Assembly: GCF_029784135.1 (NCBI RefSeq)
Contig: NC_073744.1
Location: 103,413,303-103,477,302 of the forward strand
Source of the DNA: Toxorhynchites rutilus septentrionalis
Lineage: Eukaryota; Arthropoda; Insecta; Diptera; Culicidae
Length of the DNA: 64,000 bases
Direction: 5' to 3'
Every line of letters starts with the position of its first letter. The first letter of the stretch is position 1. The position numbers and the translations under genes are program-made. The notes beneath the pieces were generated by a model, which saw only the letters and a program-made list of their open reading frames with translations, did no database searches and was not told the DNA's origin. This document shows positions 4,683 through 64,000 of the stretch, piece after piece.

Positions 4683-4856
4683 ACGGGTGGGTAATGTCGG
4701 GGACATAACCGGAGTGACGTAGGACTATACAAAGGGGACAGCTTTTGTTAAAGATATATTTTAAATATGTTGTTTTATTTTCTTCTCCTACGTGAACCTG
4801 AAAATCTACCTGAAAAATGGATCAGTTTACTGTTTACTCTTTATGAATATGTTGAT

Positions 4857-4872
4857 GGTTCTGAAAAGAACC
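4857..4872 (-). terminator. Histone mRNA 3' stem-loop (H2A unit 1, copy A)
   Basis: On the minus strand this reads GGTTCTTTTCAGAACC, a six-base-pair stem around the TTTC loop with the shape of the replication-dependent histone stem-loop (consensus GGCYCUUUUCAGRGCC). The third and fourth bases have changed but pairing is kept. It lies downstream of H2A unit 1 on the same strand. Confidence 0.7.
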
Positions 4873-5111
4873 TTTGGTGTTGTGTTTTTGTTATCACTCG
4901 ATATTCCCATCTTGTTCGGTTAAACCTTCCTGTTTAGCTATTGCGTATGCCACTCGCCACAGCTTTCACAGTTGGAAAATTTCTTCCCATCCAGCTTGTG
5001 ACATGTTGTTCAGCAAATTACATTGAATGCGACATGCCGGAGAAACACTTTGCCACTCACTGAAACTAATTGTTGCCTTGATGAGCGCCGAACCGAAGCT
5101 GCTCTGTTCTT

Positions 5112-5334
5112 GATGCGGGTTTTCTGATTGTCGTGAGCAGCTTTGCAAGCCAACTCGAGCACTTCGACGGCCGAAACTCTATAATCGCTGTTAGGTATAC
5201 TGGTGCTCCGGCACCAATCCGTTCGGCCTAGTTACCCTTGCGGAGCAATCAGTGAATGCGATCAACAGGGAACTGGAGACCTGTGCCTTTCTCTTAACTG
5301 GAGGACAAGTTTTGTTACGTCCACGATGCCGATG
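5112..5334 (-). pseudogene. Histone H2A-like unit 1 (copy A)
   Basis: The minus-strand translation contains IGAGAPVYLTAIIEF, then after a one-base shift AVEVLELACKAAHDNQKTRI. These are the alpha-2 and alpha-3 region of histone H2A (GAGAPVYLAAVMEY / [20 protein letters not shown] in canonical H2A). The N-terminal tail is recognisable but rearranged in this copy, and the start codon is lost (ATC where ATG is expected). A histone cap-site motif TCATTCA lies upstream on the same strand. The stem-loop at 4857-4872 follows. The unit is a pseudogene by frameshift and stops, but identity over the fold region is far beyond chance. Confidence 0.8.
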
Positions 5335-5551
5335 CCGTACAACCACACGGGTTTACGGTTTGAATGAAAATAAGATATTTTTTTGGGGTCCGCGTGTTTT
5401 ATACTCTAGCGGTACACACTCACAGGATAGAGACAAATCGGCAGACTCAGCCAAAGAAGCGAGTCCAACGAGACGAACGAATGAGCGTTAAAAGGGAGCG
5501 ATGGCAAAAAAATACATTCATTACGATTTGTTCGCTCGTTGGATTCACAAG

Positions 5552-5567
5552 GGTCCTTTTCAGGATC
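5552..5567 (+). terminator. Histone-type 3' stem-loop on the plus strand (copy A)
   Basis: GGTCCTTTTCAGGATC on the plus strand has a six-pair stem (one G-T wobble) and the TTTC loop. It marks the end of a transcription unit opposite to the H2A units. The interval from the shared promoter region (about 5370) is only about 180 bp, too short for a complete core histone gene. The coding part has therefore been mostly lost. Confidence 0.6.
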
Positions 5568-5883
5568 ACAAAATTATCTTCAATCTAAAGAGCTTAATGT
5601 TTTGTTATCACTCAATATCCCCATCTTGTTCGGCTGAACCTTCCTGTTTAGCGATTTGTTGCCACTCGCCACAGCTTTCACAGTTGGAAAATTTCTTCCC
5701 ATCCAGCTTTGTGACATGTTGTACAGTAAATTACATTCAATGCGACGTGCCGAAGCGCCACTCAGTGTCGCATTGGAGGCGATTTTAACTTGTAATTGAA
5801 CATTTGCATTAACAATGGAACAGTGATAATGTTTAAGAAAACATTGAACTGTATTTCCTAAACTCTGTTTTGGAAGGTTTAAT

Positions 5884-5899
5884 GGCCCTGAAAAGGGCC
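5884..5899 (-). terminator. Canonical histone mRNA 3' stem-loop (H2A unit 2, copy A)
   Basis: The minus strand reads GGCCCTTTTCAGGGCC, an exact match to the consensus GGCYCUUUUCAGRGCC of replication-dependent histone mRNAs, followed by A as usual. In living genes this structure binds SLBP and directs U7-dependent cleavage instead of polyadenylation. It lies downstream of H2A unit 2 on the same strand. Confidence 0.85.
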
Positions 5900-6085
5900 T
5901 CGTTTAATGGAATGGTTCCAATTTAGAAAACTTAGTACTCGTGGTTTTGAAAAAGACCATTTCGATGAGTTTGTATAAAGAACAAACTTTTTTCTTCTGC
6001 TACCTGATGCCGTTTTGCGATTGCGTTTGCCACTCGCCACTCGCCTGTTGTCTTGATGTCCACCGAACCGAATGTGTTCTGTTCC

Positions 6086-6262
6086 GAATGCGGGTTTTCT
6101 TATCGTCACGAGCAGCTTTGTTAACTCGATCACTTCGGCGGCCGAAACTATATAACGCCGGCTAGGTGGACTGGTGCACTGGTACTAACGCGCTCGGCCT
6201 AGCTACCCTTGCGGGGTAGGTGCCTTTCCCTTCACTTTTCCCCCTTTACCATGTCCAGACAT
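6086..6262 (-). pseudogene. Histone H2A-like unit 2 (copy A)
   Basis: From the ATG at 6262 the minus strand reads [14 protein letters not shown], the H2A N-terminal tail. A deletion then shifts the frame. Further on, [15 protein letters not shown] and KAARDDKKTRI are recognisable in other frames. Upstream lie a TCATTCA cap-site-like motif and a TTAAAAAT-like element in the better copies. This copy has lost about 20 codons compared with unit 2 of copy C. Confidence 0.75.
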
Positions 6263-6771
6263 GGCTGCTTGGGTTGGTTTGTTGATGTGTTGTGATGCGA
6301 ACCGATGTGGTGTACGGTTTGAACGAGAATGATCGTTACGGCAGCGGAGCGGGGATCTTTATGCTGACTGGCTGGCTCGAGAATTACTCATGTGTGAGAC
6401 TGCGACCAATGTTTCGTTCATTTTTTTCTTTTTCCTTTCCAATCGTGCTTCATTCTATTTCGCTGCTGCCGCTGGTTGCCCGTTTTGGTCGGTACGATTT
6501 GAGGAGCACAAAATGGACCAATCAAAAATGAGCACAATGCAATGCTTGATATTTCACAATTATTCAATTATTTATCTCAAGAAAAATAAAATGTTATTCG
6601 TTATGATAGATGCGTAGATATATTTTCTATCAATTGATGCAAAAACGTTCGCGATCTATTGAGAAATGCTCGAGTTATAAGCGTTCCAAATCTTGCATTT
6701 TTTCCTACTTGTTCAGTGCCTAGATTTCCATTTCACCCCCTATATCTTCCGGTTAGACGTAGTCCTACGTC

Positions 6772-23046: not shown

Positions 23047-23747
23047 GTCATTGATTGATTTTTCGTTTCCGGTTGTGCTTAGCACAAACAGCACTAAATA
23101 CTCGTGGATATTGGAGCTTTCTGTGTGTAACGAGTGAGCCCTAGAATCAAATCGGCTGTTTTGAAAACCGTCCTGGAGTCTGGTTAATTGAGATCACGAC
23201 TGAGAAGGGTGAGTACAGCTGGATATAAGAGTGAGTCTGGAAAGGGCACAAATGTTGATCTAGTCGTGATTCGAACGCACGTTACATCCAGAAGGCTCTA
23301 GTTCCCGAAAGATTTCCCAGCAATGGATTCGGAAATCAATATAAAATATCGGACCCTTTTGGTTCACCACCTTGAGAAGGACGAAATTGAATTCGAACTC
23401 GAAACTAGAGCAGTGCAATTCGAGAAGGAGGAAAGTGTATCGGTGCTTAGGAGACGTTTGCGTGAGAAATTGAAGCGAGAGAAAGGCGATCCGGAAGAAA
23501 TTGATTTCACAAAGTGTGAAACACGTACAGTGGCTAATGAAATCGAATTGATAGATGGAAAGATAAAAAAGACGGGTGGGTAATGTCGGGGACATAACCG
23601 GAGTGACGTAGGACTATACAAATGGGACAGCTTTTGTTAAATATATATTTTAAATATATTGTTTTATTTTCTTCTCCTACGTGAATACCTACCTATGTAC
23701 CTTAAAAATGGATTAGTTTACTGTTTACTCTTCATGAATATGTTGAT

Positions 23748-23763
23748 GGTTCTGAAAAGAACC
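23748..23763 (-). terminator. Histone mRNA 3' stem-loop (H2A unit 1, copy B)
   Basis: Minus strand GGTTCTTTTCAGAACC, identical to the one at 4857-4872 in copy A. The stem is fully paired although two bases differ from the animal consensus. Confidence 0.7.
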
Positions 23764-24002
23764 TTTGGTGTTGTGTTTTTGTTATCACTCGATATTCCCA
23801 TCTTGTTCGGTTAAATCTTCCTGTTTAGCTATTGCGTTTGCCACTCGCCACAGCTTTCACAGTTGGAAAATTTCTTCCCATCCAGCTTGTGACATGTTGT
23901 TCAGCAAATTACATTTGATGCGACGTGCCGGAGAAACACTTTGCCACTCACTGAAACTAATTGTTGCCTTGATGAGCGCCGAACCGAAGCTGCTCTGTTC
24001 TT

Positions 24003-24231
24003 GATGCGGGTTTTCTGATTGTCGTGAGCAGCTTTGCAAGCCAACTCGAGTACTCCGACGGCCGAAACTCTATAATCGCTGTTAGGTATACTGGTGCTCC
24101 GGCACCAATCCGTTCGGCCTAGTTACCCTTGCGGAGCAATCAATGAATGCGACCAACAGGGAACTGGAGACTTGCACGGTTCGAGTGAGACTTTGCCTTT
24201 CCCTTAACTTGTCCTCCTTTGTTACGTCCAC
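24003..24231 (-). pseudogene. Histone H2A-like unit 1 (copy B)
   Basis: Read on the minus strand from 24231, one frame gives, with two stops, [35 protein letters not shown], then AERIGAGAPVYLTAIIEF. After a single-base shift EVLELACKAAHDNQKTRI... is lightly altered to VGVLELACKAAHDNQKTR. These follow canonical H2A from the tail to the alpha-3 helix without gaps. The two nonsense changes sit at the Arg of RIHRLL and the Tyr of GNYAER. The start codon is gone and the C-terminal third is not recognisable, apart from an ALIKATI motif near 23960 that may be chance. The region upstream has a TCATTCA cap-site-like motif. Confidence 0.85.
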
Positions 24232-24239
24232 GATGCTGA

Positions 24240-24340
24240 TGCCGTACAACCACACGGGTTTACGGTTTGAAGGAAAATAAGATATTGTTTGGGGTCCGCG
24301 TGTTTTATACTCTAGCGGTACACACTCACAGGATAGAGAA
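24240..24340. promoter_or_regulatory. Putative divergent histone-type promoter (copy B)
   Basis: Between H2A unit 1 (minus) and the plus-strand unit. On the minus strand a cap-site-like sequence lies close to the H2A start. On the plus strand TTTTATACTCTAG could act as a TATA element ahead of the unit that ends at the 24470 stem-loop. Head-to-head promoters are usual for core histone pairs in insects. The assignment is inferred from arrangement. Confidence 0.4.
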
Positions 24341-24469
24341 AAATCGGCGGACTCAGCCAGAGGGGCGAGTCCAACGAGACGAACGAATGAGCGTTAAAAG
24401 GGAGCGATGGCAAAAAAATACATTCATTACGATTTGTTCGCTCGTTGGATTCACATGCAGGCTAAAAAG

Positions 24470-24485
24470 GGTCCTTTTCAGGATC
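24470..24485 (+). terminator. Histone-type 3' stem-loop, plus-strand unit (copy B)
   Basis: GGTCCTTTTCAGGATC on the plus strand, conserved at the same relative place in copies A (5552) and C (54686). About 75 bp upstream the plus strand reads GACGAACGAATGAGCGTTAA, which resembles the 3' end of an H3 reading frame (arginine-rich end, GAGCG, TAA). That similarity is short and weak. Confidence 0.6.
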
Positions 24486-25060
24486 TCAAAATTATCTTCA
24501 ATCTAAAGAGTTTATTGTTTTGTTATCACTCGACATCCCCATCTTGTTCGGCTAAACCTTGCTGTTTAGCGATTGCATTTGCCACTCGCCACAGCTTTCA
24601 CAGTTGGAAAATTTCTTCCCATCCAGCTTGTGACATATTTTACAGTAAATTACATTCAATGGCACGTCGCATTACCACCACTCAGTATCGGATTGGAGGT
24701 AATTTTAACCTGTAATTGAACATTTGCGATGACAGTGGTACAGTGTCGACCTTCAATGTGGGGTCATAATTTGGACCCCGAACTCTATGTTTACAAAAAT
24801 GTCCAACTAAATATGTCGCATTACTGGTCCGTCCAATTAGCTAAATGTCGAGATAAGTGTAAATTACTGTACTTTCAATCTAGAAGCAATTTAAGAATTG
24901 GTGAAAATCAATAAGCTCAGAACAACTGCCAAATTCACATACTCATCATATCCTGGCAAACAAATTATGAAAAAATCAATTTGTGTTTTATTATTATTTT
25001 GGATATTGTTTTAGAAAGCATTGAACTGTATTTCCTAAACTCTTTTTTGGAAGGTTTAAT

Positions 25061-25076
25061 GGCACTGAAAAGCGCC
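25061..25076 (-). terminator. Histone mRNA 3' stem-loop (H2A unit 2, copy B)
   Basis: Minus strand GGCGCTTTTCAGTGCC: the consensus stem-loop with one substitution and one G-T wobble pair. Confidence 0.75.
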
Positions 25077-25139
25077 TTGTTTTATGGAATGGTTCCAATT
25101 TAGAAAACTTAGTACTCGTGGTTTTGAAAACGCCTGGTT

Positions 25140-25453
25140 TTCGAACGCCCTCGATGCCGCCTTGTTCTGGATTTGCCACCAAAGCAGTTTGTATAAAGAA
25201 CAAACTTTTTTCTTCTGCTACCTGATGCCGTTTTACGATTGCGTTTGCCACTCGCCACTTATCGTCGCGAGCAGCTTTACCAGCTAACTCGATCACTTCG
25301 GCGGCCGAAACTATATAACGCCGGCTAGGTGAACTGGTGCACTGGTACTAACGAGCTCGGCCTAGGTACCCTTGCGGGGAACTCCAGATCAACACGGTTC
25401 GAGCGAGATTTTGCCTTTCCCTTCACTTTTCCTCCTTCACCATGTCCAGACAT
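25140..25453 (-). pseudogene. Histone H2A-like unit 2 (copy B)
   Basis: From the ATG at 25453 the minus strand reads [20 protein letters not shown], then VDLEFP, matching the H2A tail and start of alpha-1. A deletion of about ten codons and frame change follow. Then [15 protein letters not shown] and AAEVIELAGKAARDDK are recognisable. Beyond that the frame RHQVAEEKSLFF...NPEQGGIEGV may be the worn C-terminal part (canonical RHLQLAIRNDEEL...AQGGVLPNI), a weak alignment. The stem-loop at 25061 closes the unit. Confidence 0.75.
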
Positions 25454-27436
25454 GGCTGCTTGGGTTGGTTTGTTGATGTGTTGTGATGCGAACCGATGTG
25501 GTGTACGGTTTGAATGAGAATGATCGTTACGGCAGCGGAGCGGGGATTTTTAAGCTGACTGGCTGGCTCGAGAATTACGCATGTGTGAGACTGCGACCAA
25601 TGTTTCGTTCATTTTTTTCTTTTTCCTTTCCAATCGTGGTTCATTCTATTTCGCTGCTGCTCTGGTTGCCCGTTTTGGTCGGTTCGATTTGAGGAGCACA
25701 AAATGGACCAATAAAAAATGGGCACATAGTGCATTTTGACAATGCTTGATATTTCACAATTATTCAATTATTTATCTCAAGAAAAATGAAATGTTATTCG
25801 TTATGATAGATGCGTAGATATATTTCCTATCAATTGATGCAAAAACCTTTGCGATCTATTGAGAAATGCTCGAGTTATAAGCGTTCCAAATCTTGCATTT
25901 TTTCCTACTTGTTCAGTGCCTAGATTTCCATTTCACCCCCTATATCTTCCGGTTAGACGTAGTCCTACGTCAAAAGAAATTAGTGATTATTTGGAGAAGA
26001 AGAAGGAGTTCGAGGGAGTTCGGGAGGCACTAGGGACAAGGTTAGTACACTATTTTGTTCGCAGTTCTGCAGTTCTGATACGTCGATTATATAGCTCATA
26101 CTTTACGATGTTTTCTCCGATAGAATCGATCCGTAAGGAAGTCATGCTCCAGATTACGAACTCGCTTACACAGTTGCAATTAGGACAACCAGGTCCGTCG
26201 ATTGTGCCGCGAGTGTCTCAAGAGACCCAGACGGACGATACAGAAGCGAATTCCGGAGGGAATCAGGAGTCCAGGCAATCCAAGGTCCAAAGTAGTCAAC
26301 CGCGACGACAACTCCGTTCTAGTTTAAATCATTCACATCCTTCCATCTTACTAAACGGTCCTCAAAGTTCTGTGGTGCCGTCTGGATCGGATATTCTTCG
26401 GCAACCTAAAGAGTACCTGCTGAATAGAGTGGATCTGGTGAGTAAACCGAAGAATGATAAGATGATAGATACCAATCTTGGGGATGATTCATCGACGTCA
26501 TCGGAGGGTACACCACGGAAGCCAAACCCAAAATCTCGAGTGTCCCATTCAAGGCGATCTAAACCAGTGTCTGACTGGAACATGGGCCGATATGATGGGA
26601 GAGAAGGAGGCCACGGTTTGATGCGTTTTATTAAGGAGGTGGAATTTTATGCAAAATCGGAAGGTGTTTCTGAGAAAGAGTTGTTTCGTTCAGCGATCCA
26701 TCTATACTCTGGTCTGGCCAAAATATGGCTCATGCAGGGGGTCGAAACTGAAAAAGGAATTTTTGAGCCCGGATCACGATCACGTCAGTGAAGGCCGAGC
26801 TGTAGAGAGGAAACAAAGATCAAAGGAGAATTTTCAAGATTTCTTCTTTGACATTCAGCAAATTTTCAATTCATTAACAAAGCCGATTTCAGAGAAGAAG
26901 AAGTTCGAGATTGTGTTTCGTAACTTGAGGGCAGATTATAAAGGGCATGTAGTGGCTGCGCAAATAGACAATCTGGCCGATCTCAAACCATTTTGTCGCA
27001 AACTTGATGCCACTTTCTGGTTCAAATATGAAACTCGTCAAGAAATACAAACTTCTCGGAATCGAGCTCAGGTTTCGGAATTGAAGTTGGATTCAAAATT
27101 GAAGTTCGTTAAAGAGGGAGATCAGTCAAAGTCCCTATCCAAACAGAAAGGGATAGAAAAACCGGAGGTAGGAAAAAAGAATAGAAAGACATCGCGAGAG
27201 AAACAGTCCGATGAGGATGCATCTCCCAGTGAAAAAGCTGAATCGGATATTCCGAAGATTTTGGTGGATCAATACATTCCGCCCAAGCCGGGTAGGTGTT
27301 ACAACTGCCGACTTGTAGGGCATCACCATTCAGAATGTGAACGCCCAAAGCATAAGTATTGCTACAAATGTGGTTTCCACAACGTGGAGACCAAATCATG
27401 TCCCTTCTGTGAAAAAAACGCCTAGGTAACTGTCTG

Positions 27437-31892: not shown

Positions 31893-32511
31893 AATGTCAT
31901 TAATAAAGTGTTTCATAAACTTTAGATTATTCGTTTCCTTTTTAATTTACTTTTGTGAATTTTTCGGTTATTTTCATCAATTATGTTAGTTTCCCTGTTT
32001 TCTCTTACTTTGTTTTCTTTATATCTTTCTTGATGTTTGAGATTATTTCTTTTTCTTTCATATACAGTTTCATTATCTCGAAAAGTTTCATAATCTACTC
32101 GGGATTGGTTTAATTTTTCTATTTCTTTACGTTTCCGTTCCATAATTCTTTCTTTGAATTCTTTATACATTTTTTCTTTCATTCTAACTCTTTCGTCTAG
32201 GTCTTCAGGGATCGTCGTATCTTGCCTAAATCCGTAAAATAATTCTCTTGGGGTGATATTTGTTTGGGTATGAATGGAATCATTGTAAATTGCAACTGCT
32301 AGGTTAATTTTGCTCGATTCAGGAAGATCTTTGGTAGAGTCTTTGTTCGAAAGAATATTATGTAGTTCTCTTAGTGTTCGATGAACAATTTCTATAGTTC
32401 CGTTTGATGAGGATTGACCAACGCTGGTGTAGTGATATTGTATTTGATTTTCTTCTAGAAAGCTTTTCACAGTGGTAGAAGTAAATGCGGCTTCCTGGGC
32501 CATTATGAGTA

Positions 32512-33807
32512 AAGGGTGTGTCACATCAAATTGCATCACGGAAAAAACGCTGTAGAAATTCGCCCAGTAGACCGATCCTTTTGAAAATTTTAGACAGTAA
32601 AATAAAAACTGTTAAACAACTTTTGGTATTTTCTTTTTATTCATACTTCGAGCCCAAGCCCGTATGCTCGCACCTTCCTCTTTACCCCGTCCATAAGGTT
32701 CTGTACAACGTCAGGTTGTAGTTTTTTTGAACAGAAATCCATTTTCTCTTGAAGTCCGCCTCCGATTTGACAACTTTTGGGTTCTTCCGGAGGGCCTGCT
32801 TCATAATCGCCCAATATTTCTCTATTGGGCGATGCTCCGGCGCGTTGGGCGGGTTCTTTTCCTTTGGCACGAAGGTGACCCCGTTGGCTTCGTACCACTC
32901 CAACGCGTCCTTTAAATAGTGGCAAGAAGCGAGATCCGGCCAGAAGATGGTCGGGCCCTCGTGCTGCTTCAATAGTGGTAGTAAGCGCTTCTGTAGGCAC
33001 TCCTTAAGGTAAACCTGCCCGTTTACCGTGCCGGTCATCACGAAGGGGGCGCTCCGCTTTCCGCAAGAGCAGATCGCTTGCCACACCATGTACTTTTTGG
33101 CAAACTTGGATAGTTTCTGCTTGCGAATCTCCTCCGGAACGCTGAACTTGTCCTCTGCGGAGAAGAACAACAAGCCCGGCAGTTGACGAAAGTCCGCTTT
33201 GATGAAGGTTTCGTTGTCCATTACCAGGCAATGCGGCTTCGTCAGCATTTCGGTGTACAGCTTCCGGGGTCGCGTTTTCCCCACCATGTTTTGCCTTTCG
33301 TCGCGGTTAGGAGCCTTCTGAACCTTGTATGTACGCAGGCCCGCTCGCTGCTTGGTCCACTGGACGAATGAACTTGACAAATTCAGCTTATTGGCGACAT
33401 TCCGGACCGAACTTCTCGGATCACGTCTAAACTGCTTAACTACGCGCTTGTGTCATTTTCACTGACGGAGCATCCATTTTTGCCGTTCTTCACCTTCCGG
33501 TCGATGGTTAGGTTCTCGAAGTATCGTTTTAGTACTCTGCTGTCCGTGGATTGGTCGATTCCCAGCATCTTACCGATGTCCCGATGTGACCACTCCGGAT
33601 TCTCGAAATGAGTGCACAGGATTAATTCACGACGCTCTTTTTCGTTCGACGATATTTTTCCAAATTTACGAAAAATTGACAGTGAAGCATGGCCAACGTG
33701 ATCTATACACTCATATCTGATTATAAGCGAAAGCTGAAGATATAATTCCTAAAAATTAAATTTCTACAGCGTTTTTTCCGTGATGCAATTTGATGTGACA
33801 CACCCTT
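32512..33807 (-). mobile_element. ITmD37E-type Tc1/mariner transposon
   Basis: Flanked by TA on both sides (32510-32511 and 33808-33809) with terminal inverted repeats starting AAGGGTGTGTCACATC and extending more than 40 bp almost without mismatch. Length is 1296 bp, typical of Tc1/mariner. It carries a single transposase gene on the minus strand. It sits inside the integrase of the errantivirus. Confidence 0.9.
32682..33690 (-). pseudogene. ITmD37E transposase, one frameshift
   Basis: 33690-33440 gives the N-terminal helix-turn-helix region (SNEKERRELILCTHFENPEW, then HRDIGKMLGIDQST) in one frame. A frame break near 33450 leads to the main frame ending at 32682. The catalytic triad is visible: first Asp in CLVMDNETFIK, second Asp in FWPDLASCHY, and Glu in HRPIEKYW. 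The spacing of second Asp to Glu is 37 residues, the DD37E signature of the ITmD37E family described from mosquitoes. Catalytic residues are intact, so only the N-terminal frameshift (and absence of a clear ATG) marks it as inactive. Confidence 0.85.
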
Positions 33808-34904
33808 TAGTGCTGGTTTACTAAGAGTTGATAGGAAATGAGATAAAGCTCTGAGAATGTGTACAGTATTACGCGTACGAATTGGTATAGCGAATGCAAG
33901 TCTGGAGAATTTATCACAAAAAGTGAGATAATTCTTTTTTTTTTATTATGAAAATATCCATGTGATTTTGTAATGGTTTCGATGGCGTTTCAGTAAGTTT
34001 ATATTTCTGTTTGTATGGATGTCTTTCGTATTTAGATTTTTGACATAATTTACAAACGTTAATAAATTTTGTAACTTTAGATTTTATTTTTGAGAAAAAA
34101 TATTTTCTTTGAATGTGTTTGCAAGATTCGATAATACCTCTGTGATTATAGTTATGTTGTGTTAGAATAATTTGGTCTTGTTCCTCTTCGTCTGGTACAT
34201 CAATTAAGAGTTTTTCGGTCCAAAGTATTTTTAATGATTTGGCTCGAGAGAAGTAGTTTTTGTAAATGATTTGCAATGATTTAAGAATTTCAGTGTGACA
34301 GTAAAGTCCATTCACACAGTTAGATGATGCATAGTCTTTTAAAATATTTATAAGAAAAGCAGGACTGAAAATTTGTGTTTTGATGGTTATTCGATGATAG
34401 TTTGGAAAAATTGTTAAACTTTCTCGACTATTTTCAATTGATTTTTCGAGGATGATTTGATTTCTAAATTCATTGAGAGGTTTTTCTGTGCTTTTAATGA
34501 AGCCACTATCATCAGAGTCTGCTGAATGTTGAGTCATACTTTCATCTGTTGTATTTGAATTTATTTCATTGTTCACTGATTCCTCTGGTTTAATTCTGGA
34601 AAGGGAATCAGCATTGTTATTTAGAGTACCTTTTGACGTGGGACTACGTCTAACCGGAATATATGGAGGGTAAAATGAAAACCTAAACACAGAACATGCA
34701 GGAAAAAATGAAAGATTTCGAATGCTTATAGCTCGAACATTTCGTACTGGATAGGAGAGATGTTTGCATCACTTGATAGGGAATATTTCTACGCATCTAT
34801 CGCAACTAACAAAATGTTGTTTTTCATTAGATAAACAATTGAATAACTGTAAAATATTAGGCGTTATCTAAACGCCCTAACTGCATCGTTTTGATTGGCC
34901 CGAT

Positions 34905-35475
34905 TTACGGTTTCCCTAACACAGCCTTGGGGAAATCGGCATTGTAAATACATGAAAGTAGGGGGACTTTTGTTCTCATCGAAAAATGTTCCCTAACACA
35001 GACTTTAAAACCAAGCAGCGAAATCGGCATTGCAAACACACGAAAGAGCCTAGAGGCGAGTAAACTGAAAAGTTTAAACCCTCTTAAAGCCAAAAAGAAG
35101 AAAAAGAACACACGAAAGTAGGGGGAGCTTTTGTTCCCACCGAAATGTGTTCCCTAATAGAGATTTCTAAACCAAGGTGCCTGGAGAAATCGGTATTTCA
35201 AATTCATGCAAGTCGGGGGTATTTTTGTTCCGACTGGAATGTGTTTCCCTAACACATACTTCAAATCCATGAAGCGTGGGGAAATCGGCATTGCGAATTC
35301 ATACAAATCGGGGGTATTTTTGTTCCGATTGAAATGTGTTTCCCTAACACAGACTTCAAAACCGAGGTTTCTGGGGAAATCGACTCTGCAAATAAATGCA
35401 AACTGTGAGTACTTTTGTCCTCGCTTGCCTTTGTGCAGAGTGAAATATGTCTGTCCTAACATGATCTTCTAAACT
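34905..35475. repeat. About 110-bp tandem repeats inside element F
   Basis: At least five imperfect units carry TTCCCTAACACAGACTT, then AAATCGGCATTGCAAA, then GGGGG..TTTTGTTC. The same unit occurs about three times in element D at 48490-48780. Short ORFs over these repeats are by-products. Confidence 0.75.
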
Positions 35476-47339: not shown

Positions 47340-50248
47340 TGTAACTTCCTGTCCGTTAATCGTGAGTGACTATGAGTGTCTAGCTCAAAGAGCACGATGA
47401 GAAAACCACAGGGTCGTTCTCTCAGCACTCACCGGCAGCATCAAGCTGTCAATCGGGAGCTCGGGTTTAATTTCCTAAAAGTGTTATACACACGCAACAA
47501 GGGACAGAACCCTCAGCCGTTTTCCAACTTCCTCAAAGGCTGACGATGGCACACGCTTCCTACCAAACTAGAGCGGGCGAGGCCTGACAACTCCTTTTGA
47601 GTTCGGGAAAACGACAAACCAATTACAAAGAGAAATATGTGTACAAAAGAACATTCATGTAGGTTAAACGTTTTACTATTTACTATACGTGTATTACACT
47701 TGTAGTGATGTTCAATTATAATTTGAATTGTAGGTAGTTTTTATAAATCAAACTAATTACTATACATGTACTTTTCTGTGTATTTGAGTTGACTATTGTA
47801 TTTGTGTCGACTATTGTATTTGTGACGTCACAATTCAAACTTTGTATACTTGCGCATTTATAAATTTTGAGCAATGTGGTTCGGCCCGTGATCTGATGTT
47901 TTCCTCTCTTATTCCGTGTCCTTCGTGTGAATTTGTCTCACGATGTGGTCGTCTGTGACACGTCTGTCACCACATCAACCTTGATCGTAGATTGGGGTTA
48001 GGACGTTCGTTCCAGCTTGGAACAGCTCACCCGAGTACGTTGGTGGCTCGCTGCACTTTCTGCCTAGAAAGTGTCTGTCGATGCCCAGCCTATTTGAGAT
48101 AATACATATAAAAACCCACTGTGCGGACCTGCACAGTTGAGGTCAGAATAAACTCAAATCACAACCATCACCACGCTTTCACCACTTGTTCATTACAACA
48201 TATTTTTACCTTTTGACGTAGGATTACGTCTTTCGGGAACATATTGGGGTACAAATTGAAAATCCAAAATCGAGCACATCGTGAAAATTGTCCAATTTCA
48301 AACGCTTATTACTCAGTCATTTCATGATGGATTGATGAATTTTTTGCGTCAATCGATTTCGGCACTCCATAACAATTATTTATATTGATGAAAATAATGT
48401 ATGTCATGAAACTAACTATCGAACAATTGAAAAATCTCAACCCCTTTCCTATCGGAAATACTCTCTTTTGATTGGTCGAAATTGACGACACATGCGTCGG
48501 TTCCCTAACAGAGACATTAAAACCAAGCAACCTGGAGGAAATCGGCATTGAAAATACATAAAAGAAGGGGGAGCTTCTGCTCCCACCGAAATATGTTCCC
48601 TAACAGAGACATCTAAACCAAGGTGCCTGGGGGAAAACAACATTGCAAATACATGAAAGTAGGGGGAGCTTTTGTTCCCACCGAAAAGTGTTCCCTAACA
48701 GAGATATTAAAACCAAGGTACCCGGGTGAACTCGGCATGGCAAATATATGCAAGTCGGGGACATTTTTATATTGCATGTAAGATGAGTGATACGAGGTGT
48801 GTTCCCGCCCGAGAACGGGTCGTTCGTTTTAAGCTGTCTGTTTTGTTGTGTTCATTTTCACCCAAGGGAAGTTTATACTGCGAGAAAAATTAAAGTCTAT
48901 ATTAAAGTAACAAGTTTTTACTGATGAGAAAAATTGATAATTGTGTACGGTATTGGTCTTATACATCTTATACAGTGTGGATTCGATTATATACGAAAAA
49001 AAAGTTTTTTTATTCGTTTTTTATGCATATATTTTTGGTTTATTGAAAATAAAAGAAGAATTTAATCCCCCTAAAGCCAGAAAACACCTTTTTCACATGA
49101 ATATTTTTTCCCCAGAATCTCTCAGGAGATGATAGATGATCATATTTGATGAAAAGATCCTTCTACGTGTATGTTCGAATTTCAACAATGACTGAGCTAT
49201 AGAACATTTTGTTTTGTTTCGGACTCTGTTGCCTTAAACTGGCTCTACACTGAAAAGTACTAGACGTAAGCCAATTCTGTCGCCTTCATTTGAAAGATGA
49301 GAAAATTTAGTACAGAATATAGTAGTGGAACATCTGAATTAGTGAGATTCAGTAACATTTTGGAAGTGAAAATTGAAAAGTTAGTAATTTTCATCATATC
49401 TCGTTCCACTTCGGCATCTGATACACACCATCCAGAACTGTTTACCATCCTTCTATCATCATCACTCGGTAAACACTTGTGGAGTGAACAAACAATACCG
49501 AACAAGCAAACAAAACGGAGTTTACCTATGTAATTTTTCCAACATATCCAAAATTAACAGATAGCCTAACGGAATCCTACGTCAACTATGCGGTCGTGTC
49601 TCGGACACAACCCTCCTGTGCCTTTTTTGTAGTTTTTTTCTGTTTCAGGTTCTTTATCGTCGTTACAGGTAAGTTTTCTTAATTTTGTCTTCTTTTTCAG
49701 GTTCGACTTCCTATCATAAATTGTTCAACTATTATATGCATTTTTTTTCAGGAACTATTTTCACAAACCTTTTCTCTAATTTCACAGTTTACTCACATCT
49801 ATCGGAACACAAAAAAATACTATCCTTTTCTATATCTACAATGAAAAATTCTTTAACACACTTATTTCACAAAAAAGCAAAATTAAATACAATTTACTAC
49901 ACACGACGCGCACTTCTAAACCCGCGCGTAGTTCTAGGCAGAAAGAATGGCCATCGCCTTTAGCCGAGTCCCTATGCCTATTGTTGGAGTGGAGTGGAAA
50001 AAACCCAACTCCGACAATGGGTTTGTACCTCCACTGTCCGACTGGGAACCCTGCCCATTGAGCGGTGTGTAGAACACCTCAAAGGTCAGATTGCTCAAAC
50101 CGACGCAGCCGTTTGCCATCGATGAGCAGGGGAGTGACACGTTGCAGTATTTACGTTCTGCACTGTTTGAAGTGTAGTGTGTTGTGTTGTGATGTGGGGG
50201 TGTAATAATGTGTCGAAGACACAGATGGGACGGAACCTACCGGTTACA
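47340..50248 (-). repeat. Element 2 5' LTR, interrupted by element D
   Basis: It starts TGTAACCGG at 50248 and ends GTTACA at 47340 (minus strand), about 1.5 kb without element D, the same size as the LTR of element 1. Part 47935-50248 aligns with the truncated 3' LTR. Confidence 0.8.
48215..49620 (+). mobile_element. Element D: relative of the histone-carrying family, precise boundaries
   Basis: The 3' LTR of element 2 at 36180-36200 gives the empty site, so the insertion is exactly defined: 1406 bp flanked by CCTTTT (48209-48214 and 49621-49626). The left end GACGTAGGATTACGTC is a palindrome like those of copies A-C, E and F. The right end TCCTACGTCA...GTGTCTCGGACAC...ACCCTCCTGTG matches their other end in layout (TCCTACGTCA, hairpin, ACCCACCCGT). 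The interior has about three ~110-bp repeat units (48490-48780) and AT-rich filler. No ORF of interest is present. Confidence 0.85.
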
Positions 50249-54019: not shown

Positions 54020-54226
54020 ATAGCACTAGGTTTTAAAAAGAAAAAAGAAAAAGACGGGTGGGTAATGTCGGGGACATAACCGGAGTGACGTAGGACTGCG
54101 TTTGCCACTCGCCACAGCTTTCACAGTTGGAAAATTTCTTCCCATCCAGCTTGTGACATGTTGTTCAGTAAATTACATTCAATGGCACGTCGCATTATCA
54201 CCACTCAGTGTCGGTTCTGTATGCGG

Positions 54227-54449
54227 TTTTTCTTATCGTCGCGAGCAGCTTTACCAGCCAACTCGAACACTTCGGCGGCCGAAACTATATAACGCCGGCT
54301 AGGAAGACTGGTGCACTGGTACTAACGCGCTCGGCCTAGCTACCCTTGCGGAGCAATTGGCGGATACACCTACGAAGAACTGCACACCTGCACGGTTCGA
54401 GTGGGTCTTTGCCTTTCCCTTAACTTGTCCTCCTTTGTTACGTCCACGA
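54227..54449 (-). pseudogene. Histone H2A-like unit 1 (copy C)
   Basis: The minus strand shows the tail remnant around 54440-54400. Then, in the H2A frame, IRQLLRKGS, a stop, AERVSTSAPVFLAGVI and, after a shift, EVFELAGKAARDDK. The central segment that is deleted in unit 2 of copies A, B and E is present here. The start codon is lost. Confidence 0.75.
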
Positions 54450-54685
54450 TGCCGATGCCGTACAACCACACGGGTTTACGGTTTGAAAGAAAATGAGAAA
54501 TTTTTTGGGGTCCGCGTGTTATATACTCTAGCGGTACATACTCACAGGATAGAGACAAATCGGCAGACTCAGCCAAAGGGGCGAGTCCAACGAGACGAAC
54601 GAATGAGCGTTAAAAGGCAGCGATGGCAAAAAAATACATTCATTACGATTTGTTCGCTCGTTGGATTCACATGAAGGCTAAAAAG

Positions 54686-54701
54686 GGTCCTTTTCAGGAT
54701 C
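54686..54701 (+). terminator. Histone-type 3' stem-loop, plus-strand unit (copy C)
   Basis: GGTCCTTTTCAGGATC, identical to copies A and B. Confidence 0.6.
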
Positions 54702-55292
54702 ACAAAATTATCTTTAATCTAAAGAGTTTAATGTTTTGTTATCACTCGATATCCCCATCTTGTTCGGCTAAACCTTCCTGTTTAGCGATTGCGTTTACCG
54801 CTCGCCACAGCTTTCACAGTTGGAAAATTTCTTCCCATCCAGCTTGTGACATGTTGTACAGTAAATCACATTTATCACCACCACTCAGTGTCGGATTGGA
54901 GGCAATTTTAACCTGTAATTGAACATTTGCGATGATAGTGGTACAGTTTCGACTTTCAATGTGGGGTCATAATTTGGAACCTGCACTCTATGTTTACAAA
55001 AATGTCCAACTAAATATGTCGCATTACATGACCGTCCAATTAGCTAAATGTCGAACGAACTAATTGTAAATTACTGTACTTTCAATCTGGAAACAATGTA
55101 AGAATTGGTGAAAATTGAATAATCGGGAAAGTCCCCTCTATAATAAGCTCAAAACAACTGCCAAATTCTCATACTCATCATATCCTGGAAAACAAATTAT
55201 GAAAAAATCAATTTGTGTTTTATTATAATTTTGGATATTGTTTTAGAAAGCATTGAACTGTATTTCGTAAACTCTTTTTTGACAGGTTTAAT

Positions 55293-55308
55293 GGCCCTGA
55301 TAAGCGCC
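55293..55308 (-). terminator. Decayed histone 3' stem-loop (H2A unit 2, copy C)
   Basis: Minus strand GGCGCTTATCAGGGCC: same place as 5884 (A) and 25061 (B), with a loop base changed from T to A and one wobble pair. Confidence 0.6.
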
Positions 55309-55510
55309 GTGTTTCATGGGATGGTTCCAATTTAGAAAACTTAGTACTCGTGGTATTGAAAAAAAAAACCATTTCGAACGCCCTCGATGCCGCCTTGTTC
55401 TGGATTTGCAGTTTGTATAAAGAACAAACTTTTTTCTTCTGCTACCTGCTGCCGTTTTGTGATTGCGTTTGAGTCTGCCTGTTGTTGTCTTGATGTCCAC
55501 CGAACCAAAG

Positions 55511-55722
55511 AGCGAGCAGTTTTGCCAGCCAACTCGCTCACTTCAGCAGCCGAAACTCTATAACGGCTGCTAGGTGGACTGGTGCACTGGTAATAACGCG
55601 CTCGGCCTCGCTACCCTTGCGGAGCAATTGGCAAATACACCTACGGGAAACTGCAGTTTAACACGCTTCGAGCGGGATTTTGCCTTTCCCTTCACTTTTC
55701 CTCCTTTGCCATGTCCAGACAT
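55511..55722 (-). pseudogene. Histone H2A-like unit 2 (copy C), best-preserved
   Basis: From the ATG at 55722 the minus strand reads [20 protein letters not shown], then VKLQFPVG, which is 28 residues differing from canonical H2A at about four positions. A short deletion changes frame. The next frame reads [20 protein letters not shown] then AAVIEF with no stop. After a second shift comes AAEVSELAGKTAR. These cover the tail, alpha-1 edge, alpha-2 and start of alpha-3 of the histone fold. The C-terminal part is not readable. The stem-loop at 55293 closes the unit. Confidence 0.85.
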
Positions 55723-56215
55723 GGCTGCTTGTGTTAGTTTGTTGATGTGATGTGATGCGAAACGATGTGGTGTACGGTTTGGATGAGAATGATCGTCTGG
55801 CTCGCTCGAGAATTACGCATGTGTGAGACTGCGACCAATGTTTCGTTCATTTTTTTCTTTTTCCTTTCCAATCGTGCTTCATTCTATTTCGCTGCTGCTC
55901 TGGTTGTCCGTTTTGGTCGGTACGATTTGAGGAGCACAAAATGGACCAATCAAAAATGGGCACATAGTGCATTTTGACAATGCTTGATATTTCACAATTA
56001 TTCAATTATTTATCTCAAGAAAAATGAAATGTTATTCGTAATGATAGATACGTAGATATATTTCCTATCAATTGATGCAAAAACCTTTGCGATCTTTTGA
56101 GAAATGCTCGAGTTATAAGCGTTCCAAATCTTGCATTTTTTCCTACTTGTTCAGTGCCTAGATTTCCATTTCACCCCCTATATCTTCCGGTTAGACGTAG
56201 TCCTACGTCAAAACG

Positions 56216-57534: not shown

Positions 57535-59085
57535 CCTGGCAAAGTTCGTCCCGCCCAAAATTTGTTTTTTTTGTTATCAGTACCTTCAAACATTCACGTT
57601 TTCTTACTAAGCGCAAGTTCATGACATGGTTTCGTTTGATTGGTTAGTTGTCGAGTTATGCAGAAATGTTTTCATTTGTATGGGAGCCTAACACCAACTC
57701 CCCCCCCCCCTTACAGAGGGGGGTGGAGTATCCAAATACCGTGAAAACATTTATTGCGCCCTGAAACCTACATATACCTAATTTGTTTTGGTTCGCTTGA
57801 TTAATTCTCGAGTAACGCAGAAATTTGTGTTTCATTTGTATGACAGCTCCCTCTTAGAGAGGGGGTGAAATGTCTAACCACCGTGAAAACATTTATTGCA
57901 CCCTAAAACCTCCATATACCTAGTTTGGTTTCGTTTTCTTGATTAATTCTCGAGTAATGCAGAAATTTGTGTTTCATTTGTATGGTAGCCCCCATAAGAG
58001 AGGGGGGAGGAGTATCTAACCACCATAGAATCATTTATTGCACCCTAAAACCTCTGTGCTTAGTGCTACCGTGGCCGAGTGGTTAGCGTCAAACCTAACA
58101 TGCCGGGGGTTCGGGTTCGATTCCCGTTCTGGTCGGGGAAGTTTTTCTTCAAAGAAATTTCCTCTGACTTGCACTGTGGTCACGCGTATTCTAGAGCTTG
58201 CCACTCAGAATGCATTCAAGGCGTGTTATTTGGCATAAAAATCTCAACTAAGTACTAATGAAAATGACGCAAGTAATACTACGTCGAGACGGCGGAGTTC
58301 CTCTTGGAACGTTAGTGCCATATAAGAAGAAGAAGACCCTAAAACCACCACATGCAAAATTTTGTTTCATTTACTTGATTAATTCTCGAGTAATACAAAA
58401 ATTTGTGTTACATTTGCACGGCAGCTAAGAGAAGGGGAGGAGTATCTAACCACCGTAAAAACATTTATTGCACCTTAAAACCTTCACATGCCAAATTTGG
58501 TTTCGATTACTTGATTATTTCTCGAATAATGCAGAAATTTGTGTTTCATTATATGACAGCCCCACCTTAGAGAGGGGTGGGTGTCTAACCACCATAGAAA
58601 CATTTATTGCACCCTAAAACCTCCATATGCCTAATTTGGTTTCATTTGCTTGATTAATTCTCGAAAAATGCAGAAATTTGCGTTTAGAGAGGGGGAAGAG
58701 TATCTAACCATCATAGAATCATTTATTGCACTCTAAAACCGCCACATGCCAAATTTCGTTCCATTTGCTTGATTAATTCTCGGATAATGTAGAAATTTGT
58801 GTTTCGTTTGTATGACGGAGAGGGGGGTGGAGTGTCTAACCACCATAGAAACATTTATTGCACCTTAAAACCTCCATATGCCTAATTTGGTTTCATTGGC
58901 TTGATTAATGCTCGAGTAATGCAGAAATTTGCGATTCATTTGTATGGCAGCCCACTCTTAGAGAGGGAGAAGAGTATCTAACCACCATAGAATCATTTAT
59001 TGCACTCTAAAACCGCCACATGCCAAATTTCGTTCCATTTGCTTGATTAATTCTCGGATAATGCAAAAATTTGTGTCTCATTTGT
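57535..59085. repeat. Tandem array, about 135-bp unit, ~9 copies
   Basis: Units share CTTGATTAATTCTCGAGTAA, then TGCAGAAATTTGTGTTTCAT, a GA/GGGG run, TCTAACCACCATAGAA and TTATTGCACCCTAAAACC. Anchors lie near 57640, 57795, 57935, 58375, 58510, 58648, 58770, 58900 and 59040. The last four form two copies of a dimer (TTGGTTTCATT type alternating with TTCGTTCCATT type), indicating a higher-order repeat of about 260 bp. A SINE interrupts the array. Confidence 0.85.
58053..58335 (+). mobile_element. tRNA-derived SINE
   Basis: 283 bp flanked by an 11-bp duplication ACCCTAAAACC (58042-58052 and 58336-58346). The head has a tRNA-like A box (TGGCCGAGTGG) and B box (GGTTCGATTCC). The tail ends in an AGA/AAG repeat (AAGAAGAAGAAG). 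It is inserted in the 135-bp array. Confidence 0.85.
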
Positions 59086-59556
59086 ATAGACGAAAAGAAA
59101 CGATAGTGGAAAGTAGAGAAGTGAGTGTGAAGAGTAAGGGAAGCGTAAGAGTAAATAGTAAAGAGATGTAGAATACCATTAATGGAAGTACATGAATTGA
59201 AGGTTTTGTGGTTGCGCTTATTTTTGGATAAGGTTCCACAACCGATCATCTTGTCTCAGACAGAACAGAGAGTTGGTAAATACGAACGTTACAGACAGTT
59301 GATGATAGCGCATCCGCGCAACAGTGGCATCAGCAGACGTCATAACGGTACATTAGAGTTCTGAACCACGCTGTGATGATGTTTGTATTTCTACGCGCTT
59401 GAAAGCGAGATTCGGTCATCATTATTTTCATCAATTTCTATTTTAATCCATTTTAACCAATAAATGTCGTCAGTAAATAGTAAAATCAGATTTTTCATTT
59501 TCAGTTTGACACGCGGTACAATGTACAAGTAAAGTATGTCTGTCATGGTACGATGG
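59086..59556. other. Unassigned segment
   Basis: A purine-rich plus strand to about 59170 is followed by a 60-codon frame (59182-59364; LKVLWLRLFLDKVPQPIILS) that I do not recognise. It could be the worn end of a retroelement ORF. Nothing else is identified. Confidence 0.3.
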
Positions 59557-60817: not shown

Positions 60818-61672
60818 GAGATGGAAAATGAAAGGTGGGAAGATTTTTAAATCTGTGACGTCACAGATTTTGTTTATGTGTGTTATTTTTCTTATTATAG
60901 TCCACTACACTACAAGTGTTGTTATTAAAAGAAAAAATAAGCAGATGAAATGAACGAACTAGTTTTTTTTTTCTTAAATTAATGCTAGCGTTCAAAATCA
61001 TAAGGGTCCAACTTACATTTTAGCAGAAACTGAAATTTCAGTATTTTTGAGATGTTGTAAACTTAATTTCAATTCAACTTTACTTCTCGTTACGTCGACC
61101 AAAAACGTAAATGAACAAAGTCAGAGTCACAGAATCTTTTGTTCCTTTGACGGATAAATATTTAGCAGTGCATGGAAAGAAGGGTTGCATGTTTTATTCA
61201 TGTAAAATGTATTTCAAAATGAAATTTAATTGACTTCGTTTGACCTAGATTGAGACGAAAAGTTTTCTGCTTGCATCTTAGTTTAAGACGAATGAAGTTT
61301 TCAGCACCCTAATTGTGAAAAAAGTAATTACAATTACTGACAAGAGATAAACTTCCATGAAGTTGCTCTAAAATCCGAACATAGTAGACATTAGAATACT
61401 ACTTCTGATATAAGAAGAAATCAAAGAAAAAATTAAACATTTTAGTTCGTGATATGTTTCTGCATAATGCGAAAAATGTGTTTTGGAAACATGTAATTAG
61501 TTTCTATTTATCGTCTTTCAAAGTTATTCGTTGACACATTCAATTTTGTACCATTTGAGTAACTGACTGGTATGCCTGGTATGTGAACTTCCTATCTTCC
61601 TGGCTACTAATACAATCAAAATTTAACACAACCAAAACCCGTGAATCTTCCCACCTTCTATTCTTCATCTCG
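60818..61672. mobile_element. Mutator-like MITE, copy 2
   Basis: The same family as 59557-60379, with 9-bp duplication GTACAGCTG (60809-60817 and 61673-61681). Confidence 0.85.
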
Positions 61673-61684
61673 GTACAGCTGTAT

Positions 61685-62535
61685 CGAGATGGAAAATGGA
61701 AGGTGGGAAGATTTTTTAAATCTGTGACGTCACAGATTTTGTTTATGTATGTTACTTTTCTTATAATAGTCCAATCCATAGGAAAAGTGTTGTTATTAAA
61801 AGTAACAATAAGCAAATGAAATGAACGAACTAGTTTTTTCCTAAATCAATGCTAGCGTTCAAAATTATAAGGGCCCGACATTTTAACAGAAACTAAAATT
61901 TCTGTATTTTTGAAGTGTTCCAGACTTAATTTTAATTCAATTTTACTTCTCGTTACGTCGACCAAAAACGTAAACGAACAAAGTCAGAGTCACACAATCT
62001 TTTGTTCCTTTGACGGATAAACATTTGACAGTGCATGGTAAATAAGGTTGCAAGTTTATTTCATGTAAAATGAATTTGAAAAATAAATTTAATTGACTCC
62101 GTATGACTTAGATTGAGACGAAAAGTTTTCTGCTTGAGCCTTAGTTTTAGACGACTGAAGTTTTCAGCAACCTAATTGTGAAAAAAGTATTTCCAATTGC
62201 TGACAAAAGTCAAACTTCCATGAAGTTGCTCTAGAATCCAAACATAGTAGACATTAGAATACTATTTCTGAAATCAAAGAAAAAAGTAAACATTTTAGTT
62301 CGTGATATGTTCTGTTTTTTTTGTTCAGAATTCGAAAAATATGATTTGGAAATCTGTAACTAGCTTCTGTACATCCTTTTTCAACGTTATTCGTTGACAT
62401 ATTCAATTTTATACCATTTGAGTAACTGACTGGTATGCCTGGTATGTGAACTTCCTATCTTCCTGGCTACTAACTCAATCAAAGTTCAACACAACCAAAA
62501 CCCGTGAATCTTCCCACCTTCTATTCTTCATCTCG
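61685..62535. mobile_element. Mutator-like MITE, copy 3
   Basis: 9-bp duplication CAGCTGTAT (61676-61684 and 62536-62544). The left duplication overlaps the right duplication of copy 2, so copy 3 inserted into the edge of the copy 2 site (or the reverse). Confidence 0.85.
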
Positions 62536-63350: not shown

Positions 63351-63769
63351 GACGTAGGACTACGTCTAACCGGAAGATATAGGGGGTGAAATGAAAATCT
63401 AGGCACTGAACAAGTACGAAAAAAATGCAAGATTTGGAACGCTTATAACTCGAGCATTTCTCAATAGATCGCAAAGATTTTTGCATCAATTGATAGGAAA
63501 TATATCTACGCATCTATCATAACGAATAACATTTCATTTTTCTTGAGATAAATAATTGAATAATTGTGAAATATCAAGCATTGTCAAAATGCACTATGTG
63601 CCCATTTTTGATTGGTCCATTTTGTGCTCCTCAAATCGTACCGACCAAATCGGGCAACCAGAGCAGCAGCGAAATAGAATGAAGCGCGATTGGAAAGGAA
63701 AAAGAAAAAAATGAACGAAACATTGGTCGCAGTCTCACACATGCGTAATTCTCGAGCCAGCCAGTCAGC

Positions 63770-63869
63770 TTAAAAATCCCCGCTCCGCTGCCGTAACGAT
63801 CATTCTCATTCAAACCGTACACCACATCGGTTCGCATCACAACACATCAACAAACCAACCCAAGCAGCC
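63770..63869 (+). promoter_or_regulatory. Histone-type core promoter and 5' UTR (copy E)
   Basis: TTAAAAAT (63770-63777) could serve as a TATA element. TCATTCA (63806-63812) matches the PyCATTCPu cap-site motif of animal histone genes about 30 bases downstream. A CA-rich 58-base leader reaches the ATG at 63870. A GATTGG box (inverse CCAAT) lies at about 63610. The same elements occur in copies A, B and C. Confidence 0.55.
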
Positions 63870-63998
63870 ATGTCTGGACATGGTAAAGGAGGAAAAGTGA
63901 AGGGAAAGGCAAAATCCCGCTTGAATCGTGTTGATCTGGAGTTCCTCGCAAGGGTAGCTAGGCCGAGCGCGTTAGTACCAGTGTACCAGTCCACCTAG
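63870..63998 (+). pseudogene. Histone H2A-like unit 2, N-terminal part (copy E)
   Basis: The ATG frame reads [20 protein letters not shown], then [19 protein letters not shown] and a stop at 63996. The first 25 residues match the H2A tail. The rest is a frameshifted reading, since the H2A frame continues as ERVSTSVPVHLA one base over. The unit continues past the window edge, where its stem-loop is predicted. Confidence 0.8.
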
Positions 63999-64000
63999 CC

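Follow-up and report, generated by a model that had tools for sequence, protein, structure and literature searches.

How did pieces of a core histone gene come to be scattered inside the repeats of a mosquito genome, and what are those repeats? The DNA that raises this question is a 64,000-nucleotide (nt) stretch of Toxorhynchites rutilus septentrionalis NC_073744.1 (the window, in whose numbering positions are given), where four repeat copies, A, B, C and E, carry sequence related to histone H2A. Taking all results together, we consider it highly probable that these copies are non-autonomous Helentrons (HINEs) of a family that carries H2A, and that a histone-type 3′-end signal follows the transposase gene of this family.

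Four repeat copies with common ends

The copies and the terminal features of B are listed below, and their assignment as HINEs, which are rolling-circle transposons, is almost certainly correct.

4683..6771, minus strand: copy A, H2A-carrying HINE
23571..25971, minus strand: copy B, H2A-carrying HINE, with its 5′ end at 25971 and its 3′ end at 23571
54054..56209, minus strand: copy C, H2A-carrying HINE, its terminal stem-loop region gone, with a deletion beside the 3′ subterminal inverted repeat (subTIR)
63351..64000, plus strand: copy E, 5′ part of an H2A-carrying HINE that runs past the window into locus L013
25956..25971, minus strand: 5′ subterminal repeat of B, palindromic, GACGTAGGACTACGTC, adjoining the T-run
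23604..23616, minus strand: 3′ subterminal repeat of B, TAGTCCTACGTCA, 13 bp, an inverted copy of the 5′ repeat
23583..23595, minus strand: palindrome ATGTC-CCC-GACAT of B, near the 3′ end

Sequence alignment bears out the original prediction of four copies with common, precise ends, and the coordinates given there were correct to about one base (B starts at 23571, not 23572). The flanks beyond the shared ends are different in each window copy, as had also been claimed, and ten further genome copies show the same type of junction. Read along the minus strand, B consists of a T-run, GACGTAGGACTACGTC, sense H2A units, TAGTCCTACGTCA, ATGTC-CCC-GACAT, ...CCCGTC and a second T-run. The 13-bp subTIRs TGACGTAGGACTA / TAGTCCTACGTCA (Helentrons and HINEs are expected to have at least 11 bp) are common to the copies and their autonomous partner, with the 3′ subTIR 33 bp inside the 3′ end, the palindrome between the two, and the 5′ subTIR directly at the T-run, which is the layout that Thomas et al. 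2014 (PMC4067079) give for Helentrons and HINEs. Beyond the window, in L013, another copy comes after E in head-to-tail orientation, an arrangement that rolling-circle movement can give. A related but distinct HINE 5′ end, ~80% identical to the first 250-280 bp of B, was seen at 34630-34906 and at L003:3052-3355, where it sits ~1.2 kb past an intact H3 gene.

Decayed H2A units

Using tblastn against the 64-kb window, we located the following H2A units:

5112..5281, minus strand: A unit 1, starting at residue 22
6151..6262, minus strand: A unit 2, with an extra weak piece (expect value (E) 0.21) to 6087
24003..24229, minus strand: B unit 1, residues 3-78 with stops and a frameshift, last piece E 0.004
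25225..25453, minus strand: B unit 2, residues 1-82 spread over three frames
54166..54445, minus strand: C unit 1
55512..55722, minus strand: C unit 2
63870..64000, plus strand: E unit, cut by the window end

The H2A similarity is far beyond chance. The tblastn comparison of H2A with copies A-C that had been proposed as a check gave clear matches, and two H2A-like units are indeed present in each complete copy (A, B and C), as predicted. The best match, in B unit 1 (24229-24053), has an E of 7e-26 with 76% identity and 2 stops, and the chained pieces of the other units gave E of 1e-17, 8e-16, 4e-15, 2e-13, 3e-09 and 1e-06. Unit 1 of A, B and C shares 70-74% nucleotide identity over 155-228 bp with the H2A genes of a histone cluster (contig C113). 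All window units are frameshifted or stopped, with no tblastn match in any of them to H2A residues past ~78-96. The longest ATG frames in element orientation are 45 (A), 42 (B) and 50 (C) amino acids (aa), those of B and C opening with the H2A tail, and the proposed check for an open H2A frame found none in any copy in the window.

Autonomous Helentrons with the same ends

Autonomous relatives were reached through a genome search with Helitron_like_N, in which the best 150 of 1,313 candidates were scored. The open reading frame (ORF) at locus L055 encodes a 1674-aa protein with PF14214, PIF1 and PF03372 (Rep, helicase, C-terminal endonuclease) and the motifs HAHIL and YVVEYVNK, and the 3′ end behind this ORF is 96.3% identical to that of B over 217 bp. 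Two complete elements of 14,874 bp and 14,801 bp lie at two sites (99.6% identity over 8,710 bp and 99.9% over 6,195 bp), each with the same 5′ end, four H2A-like units ~1.3 kb apart, the ORF and the 3′ end, which places the H2A array upstream of the Rep-helicase-endonuclease gene inside an autonomous element. In both copies a 152-aa open frame without a Pfam match also lies upstream of the transposase gene (L060:967-1422, minus strand).

Copies A, B, C and E keep the ends and the H2A units and have no transposase gene; they are deletion derivatives of a Helentron family carrying tandem decayed H2A units. Compared with the autonomous elements, B is 91% identical in its 5′ part and ~87-90% over most of the H2A array, with the higher value of 96.3% confined to the 217-bp 3′ end, and because its units and 5′ part are no closer than this, B stems from a related member and not from these two copies. 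The derivatives in Culex are >95% identical to their partner according to the main text of Thomas et al. 2014 (PMC4067079), the source of the literature values below.

The T-run target, the end GTC and the presence of an endonuclease set these elements apart from canonical Helitrons. The latter have a 3′ CTRR and no endonuclease. Insertion of canonical Helitrons is between A and T in the account given by that main text (PMC4067079). The proposal that a mobile element captured and spread histone DNA stands. Its kind, which the original prediction did not recognise, is a HINE/Helentron with autonomous relatives in the genome.

Copy number, insertion sites and signs of recent movement

A genome search with copy B, in which the best 40 of 4,052 candidates were scored, showed at least 20 copies (including B) at ≥98% over nearly the full length on three chromosomes; at least five other copies, on all three chromosomes, match B at 100% (rounded) over ~2,410 bp, and such matches over 2.4 kb point to recent movement. 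The exact 27-base left end (the 3′ end in element orientation) occurs 6,464 times in the genome and its reversed control 0 times. For junctions we lined up 13 copies, ten picked from the 20 near-full-length ones together with A, B and C: right ends lie in A-runs (T-runs in element orientation) in 13/13 and left ends fit the exact anchor in 11/13, the remaining two being variant ends, and the insertions are flanked on either side by two or more T. A reading of the left end as a long terminal repeat was dropped once many junctions had been aligned. At one site an autonomous copy has inserted in a HINE, and the uninterrupted paralogue supplies the empty site, in which T7 stands against T6-element-T8 with nothing else duplicated. 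From ends, flanks, near-identity and this empty site we infer that the elements have moved. Viral contigs held no match to the 23-base end pattern and no relative of the transposase protein.

A histone-type 3′-end signal behind the transposase gene

The histone stem-loop has the consensus GGYYYT-HHTH-ARRRCC, and its Rfam model RF00032 a gathering score of 34 bits. The window holds four such structures:

4833..4877, minus strand: A terminal histone stem-loop, 41.0 bits, AAAGAGT at 4836-4842, 14 nt past the stem
23724..23768, minus strand: B terminal histone stem-loop, 39.8 bits, downstream element GAAGAGT at 23727-23733
5859..5904, minus strand: A internal stem-loop, 29.5 bits (below gathering), GGCCCT type like host H2B/H3/H4
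25036..25081, minus strand: B internal stem-loop, decayed, 26.0 bits

Copy C gave no histone stem-loop match in the Rfam scan. The terminal stem-loop of A belongs to the 3′ end that it has in common with the autonomous Helentron, and at L055 the corresponding stem-loop (40.5 bits) lies between the transposase stop and the 3′ end. We had also read the terminal stem-loop of A and B as the captured H2A gene's own, and rejected this because the 217-bp 3′ end that includes it follows the transposase in the autonomous element. Using a motif scan, we found a stem-loop in the same place, between transposase stop and element end, in a second family (L054) and a third (L063/L064), with AAAGAGT exactly 14 nt past the stem in each of the three families.

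Further members came from a genome search with the endonuclease, in which the best 150 of 508 candidates were scored and all places of ≥47% identity were followed. This gave 18 tail stretches; L062, L066, L067 and L068 are without an endonuclease match, the places of L062 and L068 being re-read as L073 and L071, and 17 tails were counted including L054, L055 and L058. Among the 17, L074 resembles the L054 3′ stretch at the DNA level alone. Of these, 16 reach the 3′ subterminal repeat (L071 stops earlier) and all 16 (two of the L055 family, seven each of the L054 and L063 families) have the stem-loop, which is perfect with AAAGAGT at 14 nt in 14/16, the others being L065 with one broken stem pair and L070 with AACGAGT. 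Conservation includes the unpaired AAAGAGT and a flanking ACC, and neither AATAAA nor ATTAAA occurs from the stop to the element end in L054 and L063. The one canonical Helitron compared (L056, without endonuclease) has no full-consensus stem-loop.

Host H2B, H3 and H4 genes have such a stem-loop and host H2A a variant of it. The Helentron tails resemble replication-dependent histone genes in the consensus stem-loop and in the 14-nt spacing to AAAGAGT, which is that of host H3; unlike in histone genes, the signal lies 472, 288 and 220 nt after the transposase stop codon in the three families and not close behind a histone stop, and we infer its use. The host H2A stem-loops (L009, L010) read CGTCCT-TTTC-AGGACG, with paired changes from the GG...CC closing pairs of H2B, H3 and H4.

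Shuffles, specificity and covariation

Dinucleotide shuffling of each of the three 3′ stretches gave the stem-loop with AAAGAGT in 0/20,000 and the stem-loop alone in 0, 2 and 2. Past the stop codon, L054 and L055 match collinearly in just two places, the signal stretch (33 nt) and the subterminal repeat. The strict motif was found in 27 rows within 362,424 bases (with some overlap): 9 of H3 type, 14 Helentron tails and 4 HINEs, and nowhere else in these bases. The H3-type rows represent 7 distinct places in histone clusters, the one in L001 lying 1.3 kb past the H3 gene. Stem variants differ by paired changes (GGUUCU/AGAACC, GGUUCU/AGGACC, GGCUCU/AGAGCC); among the 9 Helentron rows, 6 have U-A and 3 have C-G as the third pair. 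The covariation score together with the cells changed on both sides was reached by 0/500 shuffles when host genes were included and by 6/500 for the 9 Helentron rows.

A second family carries H3

The histone link is wider than H2A, because a second Helentron family carries H3 and three families carry the histone-type 3′-end signal. From 150 H3 matches listed we chose 20 dispersed, partial ones, and all 20 encode H3, mostly decayed. In 19/20, at least 239 bases of flanking DNA are shared with at least four others, mainly on the downstream side (L033 shares none), and 11/20 have a 3′ end like that of Helentron L054 (82-95% over 55-83 bp). L054 and its upstream neighbour have the same 5′ palindrome, a sense H3 pseudogene and a weaker antisense one upstream of the ORF. 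The captured-gene stem-loop of these H3-carrying HINEs, of H3 type, is broken in 8/14 loci with a 3′-end match, and a full-consensus sense-strand stem-loop was found in 0/20 loci; among the 3′-end matches, 3 of 15 are short (15, 25 and 41 nt).

The L054 and L055 proteins are 67% identical over nearly their full length. In the endonuclease part the three families share 49-58% identity, L063/L064 being 49-57% identical to the other two, and the L063 relatives are 96.5-99.8% identical among themselves.

How the signal may act, and what else could explain it

The arrangement suggests that Helentron transposase pre-mRNA would be cut at the stem-loop signal by the histone machinery (stem-loop-binding protein (SLBP) and U7), and we regard histone-fashion processing at this signal as rather likely. 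Such cutting would couple transposase supply to S phase. The captured H3 stem-loops decay but the stem-loop that follows the transposase has been retained, so this structure seems dispensable in cis for transposition, which points to a role in expression. With somewhat less assurance, we lean towards the broader proposal that the transposase mRNA of mosquito Helentrons is of histone type, which would couple rolling-circle transposition to host replication, and that closeness to this machinery may explain the repeated capture of histone genes.

Several points weigh against histone-type processing. The motif (stem-loop, AAAGAGT at 14 nt) was fixed after the first families had been seen, and, taken alone, the 33-nt stretch in which L054 and L055 match gives an E of 0.76. 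The covariation rests on two variable pairs, and the number of pairs and the number of pair types were reached by 174 and 500 of 500 shuffles with host genes and by 358 and 500 of 500 for the 9 Helentron rows. Because members of any one family resemble each other closely, the tails count as three families in one species and not as 16 independent cases. With 22.9 bits, the L054 stem-loop stays below the gathering score, and in the same short search an implausible family scored higher (26.4 bits). Two AATAAA in the L055-family 3′ stretch make poly(A) ends possible there, and L063, L064, L072 and L073 have a broken endonuclease frame, with no intact member of that family seen. Host spacings are 16 and 17 nt in H2A and H4, and the host H2B downstream element has departed. 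A profile search with RF00066 gave no U7 match, nor did any control match, which makes it uninformative.

That the stem-loop is a mere relic of captured histone genes, without a role in the transposon, seems doubtful, yet it is the strongest of the alternatives. H2A and H3 pieces have been captured, the H3 ones with a stem-loop of their own, and copy A holds an internal one of the GGCCCT type. However, captured stem-loops decay, as the H3-carrying HINEs show, whereas 14 of the 16 tails have a perfect one after the transposase, with exact spacing in three families, L054 and L055 cannot otherwise be aligned past the stop, and the terminal stem differs from that of host H2A.

A DNA hairpin required in cis for rolling-circle transposition is improbable. 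Its closeness to the 3′ end would suit this role, but no full-consensus sense copy was found in the dispersed H3 loci (a few of whose 3′-end matches are short), and a separate terminal palindrome provides the hairpin that is expected. Furthermore, conservation extends to the unpaired AAAGAGT and the flanking ACC, which would be superfluous for a hairpin. Copy C is without the stem-loop, but may have lost it after landing.

Acquisition of H2A as a reverse-transcribed mRNA copy, a question of origin rather than of the signal, we hold to be just as improbable. Histone genes lack introns, so the coding part is uninformative either way; TATAAAA upstream of the start in B unit 1 suggests that promoter-side DNA may have come along, a weak point given that matches to the host gene do not reach past the start codon into upstream DNA.

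Finally, pieces of dispersed histone arrays in place of a mobile element, which the original prediction had named as a possible refutation and to which the tandem ~1.3-kb H2A units would be suited, can be dismissed almost entirely, since the shared ends are non-histone, the junctions lie in T-runs, near-identical copies occur on three chromosomes and an autonomous relative has the same ends.

Relation to known elements

Culex quinquefasciatus Helentron-Cq-32A, as the main text of Thomas et al. 2014 (PMC4067079) presents it, exists in eight copies and holds pseudogenised fragments of two histone genes, assigned to smart00428 ('H4 superfamily' in that paper) and H15. With this precedent, the impression that no mosquito element of this type had been described does not hold. 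As far as that main text describes it, Helentron-Cq-32A is likewise an endonuclease-encoding mosquito rolling-circle element with histone pieces, subTIRs, a 3′ stem loop and a T-run target; it differs from the present elements, which have tandem H2A in one family, H3 in another, thousands of exact 3′ ends and the 3′-end signal. With the H2A cargo, histone capture by Helentrons is seen in a second mosquito genus besides Culex, and H2A joins the captured genes. We take smart00428 to be an H3 model, in which case H3 capture may not be new.

The elements also resemble DINE-1/HINE elements in being non-coding, with subTIRs, a palindrome near the 3′ end, a T-run target, high copy number and no target-site change, and differ from them in that histone gene units replace the microsatellite or central repeats described. 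In the mite elements of that text the 3′ subTIR lies 38-60 bp from the 3′ end (PMC4067079). The main text makes no mention of SLBP, histone mRNA, polyadenylation or S phase (PMC4067079). We found no report of a histone 3′-end signal in Helentrons or Helitrons in the open-access literature searched; relative to the literature found, a conserved, putative histone 3′-end signal behind the Helentron transposase appears to be new.

Other features of the window

At 48210-48377 lies a further end, whose palindrome is GACGTAATCCTACGTC-like; it shares 95.8% identity with L056:7245-7412, a stretch ~1 kb past the ORF of a canonical Helitron. A pair of perfect 51-bp inverted repeats separated by 1,198 bp (32510-33809) resembles a short DNA transposon with intact ends, and eight repeat units of ~130-140 bp with 61-100% identity occupy 57712-59087. 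The near-perfect inverted repeat at 61644-61713, with a weak microRNA-family score (37.2 bits, where the gathering score is 230), is probably a repeat hairpin.

Implications

To our knowledge, non-polyadenylated stem-loop mRNAs are almost exclusive to replication-dependent histones, and the cell-cycle timing of transposon activity is poorly known. If the reading of the signal is true, transcripts of this kind would escape poly(A)-selected RNA sequencing, and a lineage of transposons that possesses a histone-type 3′ end of its own would offer a natural and testable case of replication-coupled transposase expression.

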